Below, one piece after another: positions 35,984 to 47,990 of a stretch of 64,000 nucleotides of DNA. The notes under the pieces were generated by a model that was not told the origin of the DNA, made no database searches, and was given only the letters and a program-made list of their open reading frames with translations. A program made the translations under genes and the position numbers. The first letter of the stretch is position 1. Every line of letters begins with the position of its first letter. Origin of the DNA: Erysipelotrichaceae bacterium NK3D112 (GTDB lineage Bacteria; Bacillota_I; Bacilli_A; Erysipelotrichales; Erysipelotrichaceae); assembly GCA_000701725.1 (NCBI GenBank), contig JNJQ01000016.1, positions 1 to 64,000 of the forward strand, in the 5' to 3' direction.

Positions 35984-36011
35984 TTGAAGATTTAAGCGTT
36001 TTCGATAAAAT
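35984..36011 (+). promoter_or_regulatory. promoter of the leader ORF / ankyrin / EF-G unit
   Basis: TTGAAG (35984-35989), 16-base spacer, TAAAAT (36006-36011). Transcription should start near 36018, about 220 bases before the ankyrin gene. Confidence 0.65.
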
Positions 36012-36061
36012 GTACTTAGGTAAGATTTCAATCTTGCAGATGAGACTGGAGACTTCATAAT

Positions 36062-36166
36062 ATGCCTGTTGATAGTGGACTTTTAATTGTACTTGCAAAG
36101 GAAACAAACACGGAGGATCGCGGTCTTTTAGGCGGGGTTGATAACAAATCCGAAAGAGTTTTTTAG
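36062..36166 (+). CDS. 34-codon leader ORF, candidate attenuator peptide
   Basis: Encodes MPVDSGLLIVLAKETNTEDR plus 14 more residues ending SERVF, with no known family. GGAG lies 10 bases upstream (36048-36051). Its TAG stop (36164-36166) lies in the first bases of the terminator 5' arm. A ribosome paused at the end of the ORF would mask that arm and allow read-through to the ankyrin and EF-G-like genes. The upstream leader has a small hairpin (GTAAGA 36020-36025 with TCTTGC 36032-36037). The alternative is an independent small protein or an untranslated structured RNA. Confidence 0.5.
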   Translation: MPVDSGLLIVLAKETNTEDRGLLGGVDNKSERVF

Positions 36167-36192
36167 ATGGATATTTCATGTCCATCTTTTTT
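36165..36192 (+). terminator. intrinsic terminator after the leader ORF (attenuator)
   Basis: AGATGGA (36165-36171) pairs perfectly with TCCATCT (36181-36187), followed by five T residues. It separates the leader ORF from the ankyrin gene. Only a weak second promoter (TTGGTC, 19 bases, GATTAT at 36216) lies after it. Confidence 0.85.
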
Positions 36193-36238
36193 GGTCAAAA
36201 AAACTTCATTATCTGATTATCAGTAGGAGGAAAACAGT

Positions 36239-36907
36239 ATGGATCAGACAAATCAGGAATTCTTTGATGCAGCGGCAAGCGGTGATTTTGCCAAGGTTTG
36301 TGCGCAGGTCGCAAAGGGTGCCGACGTCAATGTCGCCAGCGGTGACGGCAGGACAGCTCTGATGAGAAGTGCCAAGCGCGGTTATGAGGATATCGTCAGA
36401 TTCCTTCTCGACAACGGGGCAGACGCAAGAAAGCGTGACAGAAACAACAAGACCGCTCTGATGGGTGCGGCAAAGAAGGGACATGTTGAAATCTGCAGAA
36501 TGCTCGTTCATGCAGGTGCCGACGTCAACTCACACGATAATAAGGGAAGAACAGCCCTGATGAGAGCTGCGCTTCTGGGTGAGAAGGAAGTCGTTGAATA
36601 CCTCGTGTCCAAAGGCGCAGATGTCAATGCGGTCGATGAACAGGGCAGAACTTCCCTGATGGAAGCTGTCAACGGATACAAGACAGATATCATTGAATAT
36701 CTGCTCGCCAACGGCGCTGATATCAACGCGGTTGACCACAAGGGATGCACAGCTCTGATGAGAGCCGCATATATCGGCTATCCGAGCCTTGTCAATCTGC
36801 TGATCGACAACGGTGCGGACAAGACCGTCAAGGACAACAACGCCAACATGGCAATTCATTATGTCCGTAAGGAATGTCTCGCTGATCTTAAAGACATTCT
36901 CAAATAA
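36239..36907 (+). CDS. ankyrin-repeat protein
   Basis: 222 residues made almost wholly of six ankyrin repeats of 33 residues (from about residue 30). Each has the core (T)ALM-x-AA...VV-x-LL-x-x-GAD; the units are unusually uniform. No signal peptide, so it is probably a cytosolic protein-binding scaffold. AGGAGG before the ATG. 23 bases upstream of the EF-G-like gene and under the same attenuator, so a link to ribosomes or translation stress is plausible but unproven. Confidence 0.9.
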   Translation: MDQTNQEFFDAAASGDFAKVCAQVAKGADVNVASGDGRTALMRSAKRGYEDIVRFLLDNGADARKRDRNNKTALMGAAKKGHVEICRMLVHAGADVNSHDNKGRTALMRAALLGEKEVVEYLVSKGADVNAVDEQGRTSLMEAVNGYKTDIIEYLLANGADINAVDHKGCTALMRAAYIGYPSLVNLLIDNGADKTVKDNNANMAIHYVRKECLADLKDILK

Positions 36908-36930
36908 TTCAAGGGAGTGAAAAGAACATT

Positions 36931-39003
36931 ATGAGAGATTATCTTGCAAACGAAGTTAGAAACGTCGTCGTACTCGGCCACTCAGGGGCAGGCAAGAGCA
37001 CCGTCATCGAAGCCTGCCTGTACAAGACAAAACAGATCGATAAATTCGGTAAGAACAATGACGGTACAACCGCACTGAACTTTGATCCGGAAGAAGGCAA
37101 GAGAGGACTCTCCGTCTACTGCCATCTGGCACCGGTTGAATGGAAAGACAGAAAGATCAACTTCATCGATACTCCGGGTTACATGGATTACGAAGGTGAA
37201 GAAGCCACAGGTATCGCTGTCGGTGACAACGCGCTGATCGTCGTCAACGGCAAGGAAGGCATCGAAGCCGGCACTGAAAGAGCATGGAAGCTCGCAGCTG
37301 CGAAGAAAAAGCTGCCCACCATCTTCTTCATCAACAAGATCGATGATGAGCATGCACACTATGACCAGGTTTACCAGGCACTCAGAGACAAGTTCGGCAA
37401 GAGCGTGTTCCTGTTTGAAATGCCGATCATCGAAGGCGGCAAGACCATCGGTTCCGTCAACATTCTGAGAAAGAAGGCCTGGTACTATGACAACCCGACC
37501 CAGCCGCAGGAAGTTCCGGCTGATATGGCTGACGCGGTCGAAGAGCACTATGCGGAAATCGCTGAAGCAATCGCGATGGGCGATGATGAACTCATGGAAA
37601 AATTCTTCGAAGGCGAAGAGTTTGATGAACATGAAATCGCCAAGGGACTCAGAATCGGCGTCAGAGCCGGTGACATCCGTCCTGTTTACTGCGGCAGCGC
37701 AATCAACCAGACCGGTATCGTCAGACTGATGGACCTCATCACTGAATACTTCCCGAGCTATGCCGAAAAAGGCACAATCAAAGCACTCGATGACAAGGAT
37801 GCGGAAGTTTCCCTGGAAACAAACGAGAACGAAACTCTCTCCGCTTTCGTCTTCAAGACAGTGGTCGACCCGTTCGTCGGAAAGATCTCCTATCTCAAGG
37901 TGATGTCCGGTGTCCTCAACAGCGACAGCCAGGTCTATAACGCAAACAAGGATACAAACGAAAAGATCGCTCAGATCTTCGTTATCAACGGCAAGTTCCA
38001 GATCGGTGTCGGCAAGCTGTTCACCGGTGACATCGGCGCTGTTGTCAAGCTCAGCTCCACTGAGACAAACGACACACTCTGCGCCAAGAACAAGCCTGTT
38101 CATTTCCCGAGAATTGAATATCCGGAGCCGATGCTCGGATACGCGATCAAACCGAAGACAAAGGCTGACGAAGACAAGCTGTCCGTCGGTATCCGCAACC
38201 TCATGCAGGAAGACGGAACCATCCGCCTGGACAACAACGCTGAAACACATCAGCAGGTTCTCTACGGACTTGGCGATCAGCACATCGATCTGATCATCTC
38301 CAAGCTCAAGTCAAAGTACAAGGTTGAAGTAGAAACCGAAACTCCGATCGTTCAGTACCGTGAAACAATCCGCGGCAAGGCTGAAGCTCAGGGTAAATAC
38401 AAGAAGCAGAACGGCGGCGCCGGCCAGTATGGTGACGTCTGGGTACGTTTCGAACCGTGTGACAGCGATGACATGGTCTTCGCCGAGGAAGTCTTCGGCG
38501 GTGCTGTTCCGAAGCAGTACTTCCCTCCGACAGAACAGGGTCTGCGTGACTGTATGAACAAGGGTCCTCTGGCCGGATACAAGGTTGTCGGTGTCAAGGC
38601 TACACTGTTCGACGGATCCTACCACCCCGTTGACTCCAAGGAAGTTGCCTTCAAGGAAGCCGCAAGACTTGCTTACAACAAGGCAATGCCTAACGCAAAG
38701 CCCGCTCTGCTTGAGCCGATAGGCAAGGTTACAGTCATCGCTCCGGAAGAATACACCGGAACACTGATGGGGGATATCACAAAGAGACGCGGTCTCATCA
38801 TGGATATGGCTGTCAACGATGAAGGCGACCAGGTTATCAACGCTGAGGTTCCTGTGGCTGAAATGCTCACATACGCAAACGAACTGCGTGCAATGACACA
38901 GGGCAGAGGCAGATATGTCATGGCATTTGACAGATACCAGACCGCTCCGAAGGAAGTTGCGGACAAGGTTATCGCCGAAGCCAAGGCAAGACAGGCTGAA
39001 TAA
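36931..39003 (+). CDS. elongation factor G-like GTPase (EF-G-2 type paralogue)
   Basis: 690 residues. P-loop GHSGAGKST (K22), NKID motif, and all EF-G domains through the C-terminal MTQGRGRYVMAF. Switch II reads DTPGYMD, with Tyr84 where canonical EF-G and EF-Tu have the GTPase-activating histidine; this is typical of the EF-G-like branch, not of housekeeping FusA. Members bind ribosomes but their job is unclear (translocation under stress, recycling, or protection). Shares a transcript with the ankyrin protein. AAGGGAGTG upstream. Confidence 0.9.
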   Translation: MRDYLANEVRNVVVLGHSGAGKSTVIEACLYKTKQIDKFGKNNDGTTALNFDPEEGKRGLSVYCHLAPVEWKDRKINFIDTPGYMDYEGEEATGIAVGDNALIVVNGKEGIEAGTERAWKLAAAKKKLPTIFFINKIDDEHAHYDQVYQALRDKFGKSVFLFEMPIIEGGKTIGSVNILRKKAWYYDNPTQPQEVPADMADAVEEHYAEIAEAIAMGDDELMEKFFEGEEFDEHEIAKGLRIGVRAGDIRPVYCGSAINQTGIVRLMDLITEYFPSYAEKGTIKALDDKDAEVSLETNENETLSAFVFKTVVDPFVGKISYLKVMSGVLNSDSQVYNANKDTNEKIAQIFVINGKFQIGVGKLFTGDIGAVVKLSSTETNDTLCAKNKPVHFPRIEYPEPMLGYAIKPKTKADEDKLSVGIRNLMQEDGTIRLDNNAETHQQVLYGLGDQHIDLIISKLKSKYKVEVETETPIVQYRETIRGKAEAQGKYKKQNGGAGQYGDVWVRFEPCDSDDMVFAEEVFGGAVPKQYFPPTEQGLRDCMNKGPLAGYKVVGVKATLFDGSYHPVDSKEVAFKEAARLAYNKAMPNAKPALLEPIGKVTVIAPEEYTGTLMGDITKRRGLIMDMAVNDEGDQVINAEVPVAEMLTYANELRAMTQGRGRYVMAFDRYQTAPKEVADKVIAEAKARQAE

Positions 39004-39103: not shown

Positions 39104-39190
39104 GCCCGCGTGATGGAATTGGTAGACGTAGGAGACTCAAAATCTCCCGGTGGCGACACCGTGTCGGTTCGAGTCCGACCGCGGGCACCA
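39104..39190 (+). tRNA. tRNA-Leu (CAA)
   Basis: 87 bases with CCA and a long variable arm. Acceptor GCCCGCG/CGCGGGC. Anticodon stem GGAGA/TCTCC with loop CTCAAAA gives CAA. Confidence 0.94.
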
Positions 39191-47730: not shown

Positions 47731-47990
47731 AATCAAAAAGGCAAAGACGGGAAAGAGTATACGGTCCCATGTGCACAAGAGAGCTTCCGGATGGTGAAAA
47801 GGAAGCGGTACATGCCCGTGGAAACACATCCCTGAGCCGCATTTCCGAACGGAAACCAGTAGGGAATGACGCGGGTGCGCGTTACAGCACAGAAGTATGT
47901 CAGTACTTCATGAGGCCGTTCTTCGTGAGAAGGCGGTGAAATTGGGTGGAACCACGTTCAGGACGTCCCTTTATGCGGACGTCTTTTGTT
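47731..47990 (+). promoter_or_regulatory. histidine T-box riboswitch with terminator
   Basis: Stem I base GGGA/TCCC (47749-47752, 47829-47832), loop-E AGTA (47756-47759), and helix ACGG..CATGT/ACATG.CCGT. The specifier triplet CAC (47825-47827), after GAAA and before A, is a His codon matched by tRNA-His anticodon GTG. T-box core GGGTGGAACC with ACG (47944-47956). Terminator GACGTCC/GGACGTC (47962-47983) with a T run. Uncharged tRNA-His should stabilise the antiterminator and turn on hisZGDCBHAFIE. The base after TGG is A, which would not pair with discriminator C of the tRNA-His seen here. Confidence 0.92.

Follow-up and report, generated by a model that had tools for sequence, protein, structure and literature searches.

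An ankyrin-repeat protein gene and an EF-G2-type translational GTPase gene of an Erysipelotrichaceae rumen genome are preceded by a promoter, a 34-codon open reading frame (ORF) and an intrinsic terminator. The locus lies within the 64-kb stretch of DNA that was analysed, here called the window, and its features are as follows.

35984-36011, + strand: sigma-70-type promoter TTGAAG-16-TAAAAT, 9 of 12 positions matched; hexamers kept in 29 same-genus leaders
35991-36004, + strand: cre-like (CcpA-type) sequence TTTAAGCGTTTTCG, degenerate, with 2 mismatches; at chance level in the window
36028-36037, + strand: 5' arm of the outer leader helix, UCAAUCUUGC; predicted partner 36132-36141
36042-36050, + strand: Shine-Dalgarno (SD) arm of the leader hairpin, GAGACUGGA; predicted partners in the distal ORF 36118-36119 and 36121-36127
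36048-36051, + strand: SD sequence GGAG of the leader ORF
36062-36166, + strand: leader ORF of 34 codons, reading MPVDSGLLIVLAKETNTEDRGLLGGVDNKSERVF*; its TAG stop (36164-36166) overlaps the terminator stem
36118-36141, + strand: distal ORF segment, predicted 3' arms of the SD-sequestering hairpin; holds the genus-conserved CTTTT-GGCGGGG ('LFGG')
36159-36164, + strand: T6 run ending at the stop codon, candidate RNA polymerase pause element
36165-36192, + strand: intrinsic terminator, stem 36165-36187 (10 pairs) followed by a T-run
36225-36230, + strand: SD sequence AGGAGG of the ankyrin gene
36239-36907, + strand: ankyrin-repeat protein gene, 222 aa, followed by EF-G2 in nearly all loci (see below)
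36931-39003, + strand: EF-G2-type translational GTPase gene, 690 aa (NF009381/PRK12740); switch II DTPGY, not DTPGH

The promoter, the GGAG site, the 34-codon ORF, the stop-overlapping terminator and both genes all lie where a preliminary description of this DNA had placed them. The window holds 6 promoter-like sites where 3.9 are expected, so that the promoter at 35984-36011 would not stand out by itself; its hexamers, however, are shared by the 29 congeners. The SD match of the leader ORF in the window's genus is of four bases only. The second base of the leader ORF's TAG is also the first base of the terminator stem. The interval 36193-36238, which separates the terminator from the ankyrin gene, holds no promoter-like site. 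An Rfam search of the leader returned no known RNA family, and a search of the 64-kb window found no second site with the same architecture.

Spread, identity and promoters of the ankyrin-EF-G2 pair

The source genome lies near a rumen metagenome-assembled genome, and its named relatives include Lactimicrobium massiliense, Bulleidia extructa and Holdemania. Within the Erysipelotrichaceae the ankyrin gene is present in 239 of 273 genomes and in 56 of 60 genera, and searches of the order and of 296 sampled genomes of the class gave matches to it in this family only. The EF-G2 gene lies directly after it in 200 of 201 loci, the single exception (L130) being cut by a contig end. Judged by this gene order, the ankyrin partner is an obligate neighbour of EF-G2 and not a chance one. 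In a sister family of the same order EF-G2 occurs by itself, with neither the ankyrin gene nor an evident leader ORF. A literature search found no paper on an ankyrin-EF-G pair in Erysipelotrichaceae, and the product of this ever-present neighbour, so far uncharacterised, is a candidate accessory factor in translation.

By sequence, EF-G2 is a GTPase of the PRK12740 subfamily, scoring 854.8 bits against NF009381 (cut-off 583), and its hydrolysis of GTP is putative. Against the Bacteroides EF-G2 model NF058620 it scores 566.3 bits, below the cut-off of 1000. The switch II sequence is DTPGY in all 47 of the EF-G2 G domains recovered and DTPGH in the genome's canonical EF-G, which is a separate gene (C6:118246-120297); a weaker match just downstream of the latter, at 120417, is read as EF-Tu. 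In ribosome-protection genes of the tet(M) type, too, a short leader ORF and terminators come before the coding sequence of an EF-G relative. The window's EF-G2 differs from these in that it fails the cut-off for such proteins (303.9 bits against NCBIfam NF012153, cut-off 775), and it was rejected as a tetracycline ribosome-protection protein; the cre-like promoters of its relatives point instead to carbon control.

These promoters were scanned with the cre consensus TGNAANCGNWNNCA. Sites with at most one mismatch are present in 67 of 112 leaders of other genera, where 3.1 are expected; in the sister family 15 of 18 EF-G2 promoters have one (0.4 expected), and 10 of 54 leaders of the window's own genus do (1.3 expected). 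At equivalent promoters in most other genera the cre-like sites are perfect or have one mismatch. In Bacteroides, EF-G2 rises 238-fold under carbon limitation (PMC6989115), and by analogy the predicted cre-like sites suggest that the operon is under carbon-starvation control as well. The Bacteroides system (fusA2; PMC6989115, PMC10294740) is alike in having a second EF-G-like gene besides the canonical fusA and a catabolite-linked control, here predicted from the cre-like sites of relatives; it differs in being controlled by the activator BT4338, and the available parts of these two reports mention neither an ankyrin partner nor a leader ORF. It is a reasonable inference from this analogy that the operon is probably a low-carbon translation module.

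Stop codon position and peptide sequence across the family

Leaders were taken from the sequence upstream of the ankyrin gene at about 200 loci by a single rule, the best terminator together with an SD-preceded ORF ending nearby; this gave 163 distinct leaders, 158 of which start with ATG. The position of the stop was expressed as d, the last base of the stop codon minus the first base of the stem, with expectations from shuffled ORF interiors. The stop lies on the base of the stem (d of 0 to 2) in 83 of the 158 ATG-started leaders, compared with 5.8 expected, and in 52 of 96 divergent representatives. It falls between d -11 and +14 nt in 150 of the 158 (24 expected), a figure somewhat inflated by choice because the best candidate ORF, by SD strength and nearness, was taken for each leader; the difference between 83 and 5.8 is too large for this selection to matter to the stem-base count. 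In many of the exceptions the stop lies about ten bases further on, in the loop (d about +11), or three codons earlier (d about -8), and all three stop codons are used among the leaders. A minority deviates: the ORF of L006 runs past the terminator, and three Holdemania loci (L095-L097) are without a recognisable leader.

The general layout of an attenuator, with promoter, SD, start codon and short ORF, terminator and regulated gene, is present at the locus and conserved in relatives. The preliminary description had looked to related genomes for conservation of the leader, and this holds in part: conservation across the family extends to the ORF, the place of its stop and the terminator, whereas the peptides are unrelated between genera even though the stop geometry is retained. 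This free peptide bears on the reading of the ORF as a small-protein gene that carries its own terminator and acts in trans, the operon being expressed by read-through or from another promoter. Terminators close to a stop codon should be tolerated in Bacillota, to judge from PMC13323073, which would allow such a gene; the peptide, however, is not conserved, no promoter-like site follows the terminator, and overlapping terminators are rare at ordinary genes of the window, where only 1 of 20 genes with a terminator has its stop as close to the stem. We consider the small-protein reading highly improbable.

Within the genus, the peptides of most leaders carry [LVI]F[GA]G at a set distance of nine codons from the stop, and Phe is the final residue in 66 of 86. 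A motif at so fixed a distance and a recurrent final residue would suit a nascent-peptide or antibiotic stall near the end of the ORF, which would hold the ribosome on the terminator arm and induce a ribosome-protection-like EF-G paralogue. Several observations argue against a stall of this kind. Both motif and peptide are absent from other genera that keep the geometry, and in 37 close leader pairs substitutions are spread almost evenly over the three codon positions (204:234:228), with a weak synonymous excess. The window's motif shares bases with the predicted distal arms of the SD hairpin, and its final Phe codon lies in the T-run, so that both features have explanations at the level of RNA or DNA; EF-G2, moreover, is not a Tet protection protein. 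An arrest-peptide leader of the ErmCL, TnaC or MsrDL type was accordingly rejected, the motif being confined to the genus and the substitutions even over codon positions, and inspection of the leader peptides revealed no run of codons for one amino acid, as would mark an amino-acid-sensing leader. Drug or stress stalling is in our judgement unlikely and, since the peptide is free, the least supported of the candidate signals, the others being coupling or polymerase speed and release or recycling. The resistance-type induction by ribosome-targeting drugs proposed in the preliminary description is thus disfavoured by the free peptide, by the EF-G2 score below the Tet cut-off and by the cre-like promoters in relatives.

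The stretch just before the stem is enriched in T. TTTT occurs within the last 16 nt before the stem in 75 of the 96 divergent leaders (23 expected), and the strict NusG pause motif TTNTTT in 16 of the 96 (5.2 expected); the run is a candidate polymerase pause element. Programmed frameshifting at this run, where some leaders read one frame on, was rejected, as the read-through frames are not conserved. The same T-runs would serve a sensor of polymerase speed resembling that of pyrBI, in which a shortage of nucleotides under starvation would hold RNA polymerase back at the T-run long enough for the ribosome to draw level, and the operon would be read. Predicted cre-like promoter control, which fits starvation, speaks for a sensor of this kind, as does the Bacteroides EF-G2, reportedly active without GTP (PMC10294740). 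Strict NusG motifs are nevertheless found in a minority of leaders, and the T-run may simply prevent extension of the stem; we regard this sensor as rather unlikely.

Folding of the leader RNA

Folding and arm-swap tests were carried out across the family in place of tests on a single genus with fixed windows, which were ambiguous. The leaders fold better than their own shuffles, with a mean z of -1.32 over 150 leaders and -1.24 over the 96 representatives; the leader of the window has a predicted minimum free energy of -38 kcal/mol (z -2.42). The SD of the leader ORF is predicted to pair with the distal half of that ORF more than in shuffles (0.478 versus 0.225, p 7e-8) and avoids the proximal half, while the ankyrin gene's own SD avoids both halves. 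When the SD and distal arms of 95 divergent leaders were exchanged, the predicted pairing weakened from -13.84 kcal/mol for own arms to -10.56 kcal/mol (sd 0.27) for swapped ones, and the native pair was in the best tenth of swaps for 37 of the 95. As swapping weakens the pairing, each leader's arms appear matched to one another, which amounts to covariation-like evidence.

An unusually folded leader (z about -1.3) might be expected if an ORF-dependent hairpin acted as antiterminator or anti-antiterminator, in the manner of trp or vmlR. The 5' arm of the terminator, however, shows less predicted pairing with the sequence ahead of it in the real leaders than after shuffling (mean z -0.62 over 150 leaders and -0.60 over the 96 representatives), so that an antiterminator hairpin is not supported; the fold seems to spare this arm. 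No upstream competitor for the arm was found, the attenuator of the trp and vmlR type was rejected, and competing hairpins seem to us very unlikely.

A ribosome at the stop codon as the proposed switch

Taken together, these comparisons point to a transcription attenuator that would work by ribosome occlusion, independently of the peptide sequence, a reading to which we assign a probability of roughly 0.7. It draws on the comparative evidence of the conserved ORF, the stop-on-stem geometry, the SD-distal pairing, the lack of a predicted antiterminator and the obligate ankyrin-EF-G2 pair. Occlusion is favoured over an arrest peptide or a vmlR-type switch because the SD pairs with its own distal ORF, the peptide is free and no antiterminator is predicted. 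In Escherichia coli, as long as translation is not uncoupled, ribosomes suppress a terminator a few bases past a stop codon almost completely, and a ribosome shields about 10 bases beyond its A site (PMC4824070). Nearly every leader stop lies within this reach of the stem, and a ribosome there should therefore block the terminator whatever it had translated; that it would do so in these leaders is carried over from the E. coli result. The preliminary description had proposed that a ribosome at the end of the ORF covers AGATGGA and so blocks the terminator, and the family-wide conservation of ORF, stop and terminator strengthens this proposal.

In the occlusion model, transcription would start near 36018, and a ribosome loading early on the leader ORF would trail RNA polymerase. 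On reaching the last codons or the stop (36164-36166) it would cover the first half of the terminator stem and block the hairpin, and the ankyrin and EF-G2 genes would be transcribed; with no ribosome at the end of the ORF, the terminator would fold and transcription would stop near 36192. The newly made distal half of the ORF would meanwhile pair with the ORF's own SD and close it to further ribosomes. As the SD would be free early and closed once the distal half is made, we infer that the outcome would be set mainly by the first ribosome.

The Bacillota are classed among organisms with runaway transcription, their polymerase moving ahead of the ribosomes (PMC13323073), and terminators placed in the first ~100 nt of an ORF function normally in E. 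coli (PMC4824070). For these two reasons, polymerase pausing, for which the T-run is a candidate, or ribosome lingering would have to be part of the device. The leader may be a one-ribosome gate that reads either the pace of the ribosome with the polymerase or its lingering at the stop. A gate of the first kind, a one-shot gate set by a pioneer ribosome, would report through read-through that a ribosome had loaded promptly and kept pace with RNA polymerase, whatever the peptide; we hold this version tentatively, as a possibility. If it is true, the cell would sense its translation state to switch on a starvation EF-G2 as an alternative translocase. The second kind would be slow release or recycling, in which the terminating ribosome would stay longer on the stop if release factors or EF-G and RRF ran short and would so induce an EF-G paralogue that relieves the shortage. 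Slow release shares the geometry of the occlusion model and specifies the signal only. It would account for the stop codon itself being pinned to the stem base, and EF-G acts in recycling, a mitochondrial EF-G2 being recycling-specific (PMC8203779); on the other side, a minority of leaders have the stop elsewhere, at d about +11 in the loop or, three codons upstream, at about -8, and the use of all three stop codons singles out no one release factor. We regard slow release as doubtful. Generally slowed ribosomes could even raise termination, by analogy with fusidic acid, which in vitro made termination more frequent where a terminator followed a gene by 7 bp (PMC4824070).

The occlusion model resembles E. 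coli pyrBI and stop-proximal terminators (PMC4824070), where a ribosome close behind the polymerase prevents terminator folding whatever the peptide; timing in pyrBI depends on polymerase pause sites, for which the T-run before the stem is a candidate counterpart. It differs in that the pyrBI terminator lies inside the leader ORF, whereas here the ORF ends on the stem base, the SD is predicted to be sequestered by the distal half of the ORF, and the targets are ankyrin and EF-G2 genes. Leaders of vmlR, other ARE-ABCF genes and hflXr (PMC9226507, PMC6310831) similarly use an upstream ORF and an intrinsic terminator to control a ribosome-acting factor, and the vmlR peptide is largely free in sequence; vmlR, however, has antiterminator and anti-antiterminator hairpins and a three-codon ORF, while no antiterminator is predicted here and the ORF extends across the leader as far as the terminator. 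The leader would thus be distinguished by a conserved stop position with a free peptide, a self-sequestered SD, no predicted antiterminator and an ankyrin-EF-G2 target.

If the occlusion model is correct, the Erysipelotrichaceae, a family of gut and rumen bacteria, have a family-wide attenuator that conserves only where the ribosome stops and not what it translates. Such an attenuator in Bacillota, whose polymerase is believed to run ahead of the ribosomes, would offer a direct test of locally created coupling. It would also tie an EF-G2-type factor to a sensor of ribosome state and, in relatives, likely to carbon catabolite control, and the analogy suggests convergence with the starvation EF-G2 of Bacteroides.

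Leaders with a displaced ORF end and the Holdemania loci

The end of the leader ORF is displaced by one base in loci L006, L009 and L076; in L006 the frame runs beyond the terminator, and in L009 and L076 the stop lies within the terminator loop. Holdemania (L095, L096 and L097) retains both the ankyrin and EF-G2 genes; neither leader ORF nor terminator is recognisable at these three loci, where the upstream sequence is GC-rich and gave no match in an Rfam search.

The ankyrin gene and two RNA features

EF-G2 adjoins the ankyrin gene (36239-36907 in the window) in 200 of 201 loci, and the ankyrin protein is a candidate partner of EF-G2 or the ribosome. The window also contains:

39104-39187, +, tRNA gene that follows immediately after EF-G2
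47735-47973, +, T-box leader (RF00230, 115 bits)

Possible catabolite control in the sister family

In the sister family of the same order (L209-L226), EF-G2 is encoded without an ankyrin gene or evident leader, and strong cre-like sites (≤1 mismatch) are present at 15 of these 18 loci. Since such sites occur there with no evident leader, the sequence comparison suggests that catabolite control of EF-G2 predates the leader.
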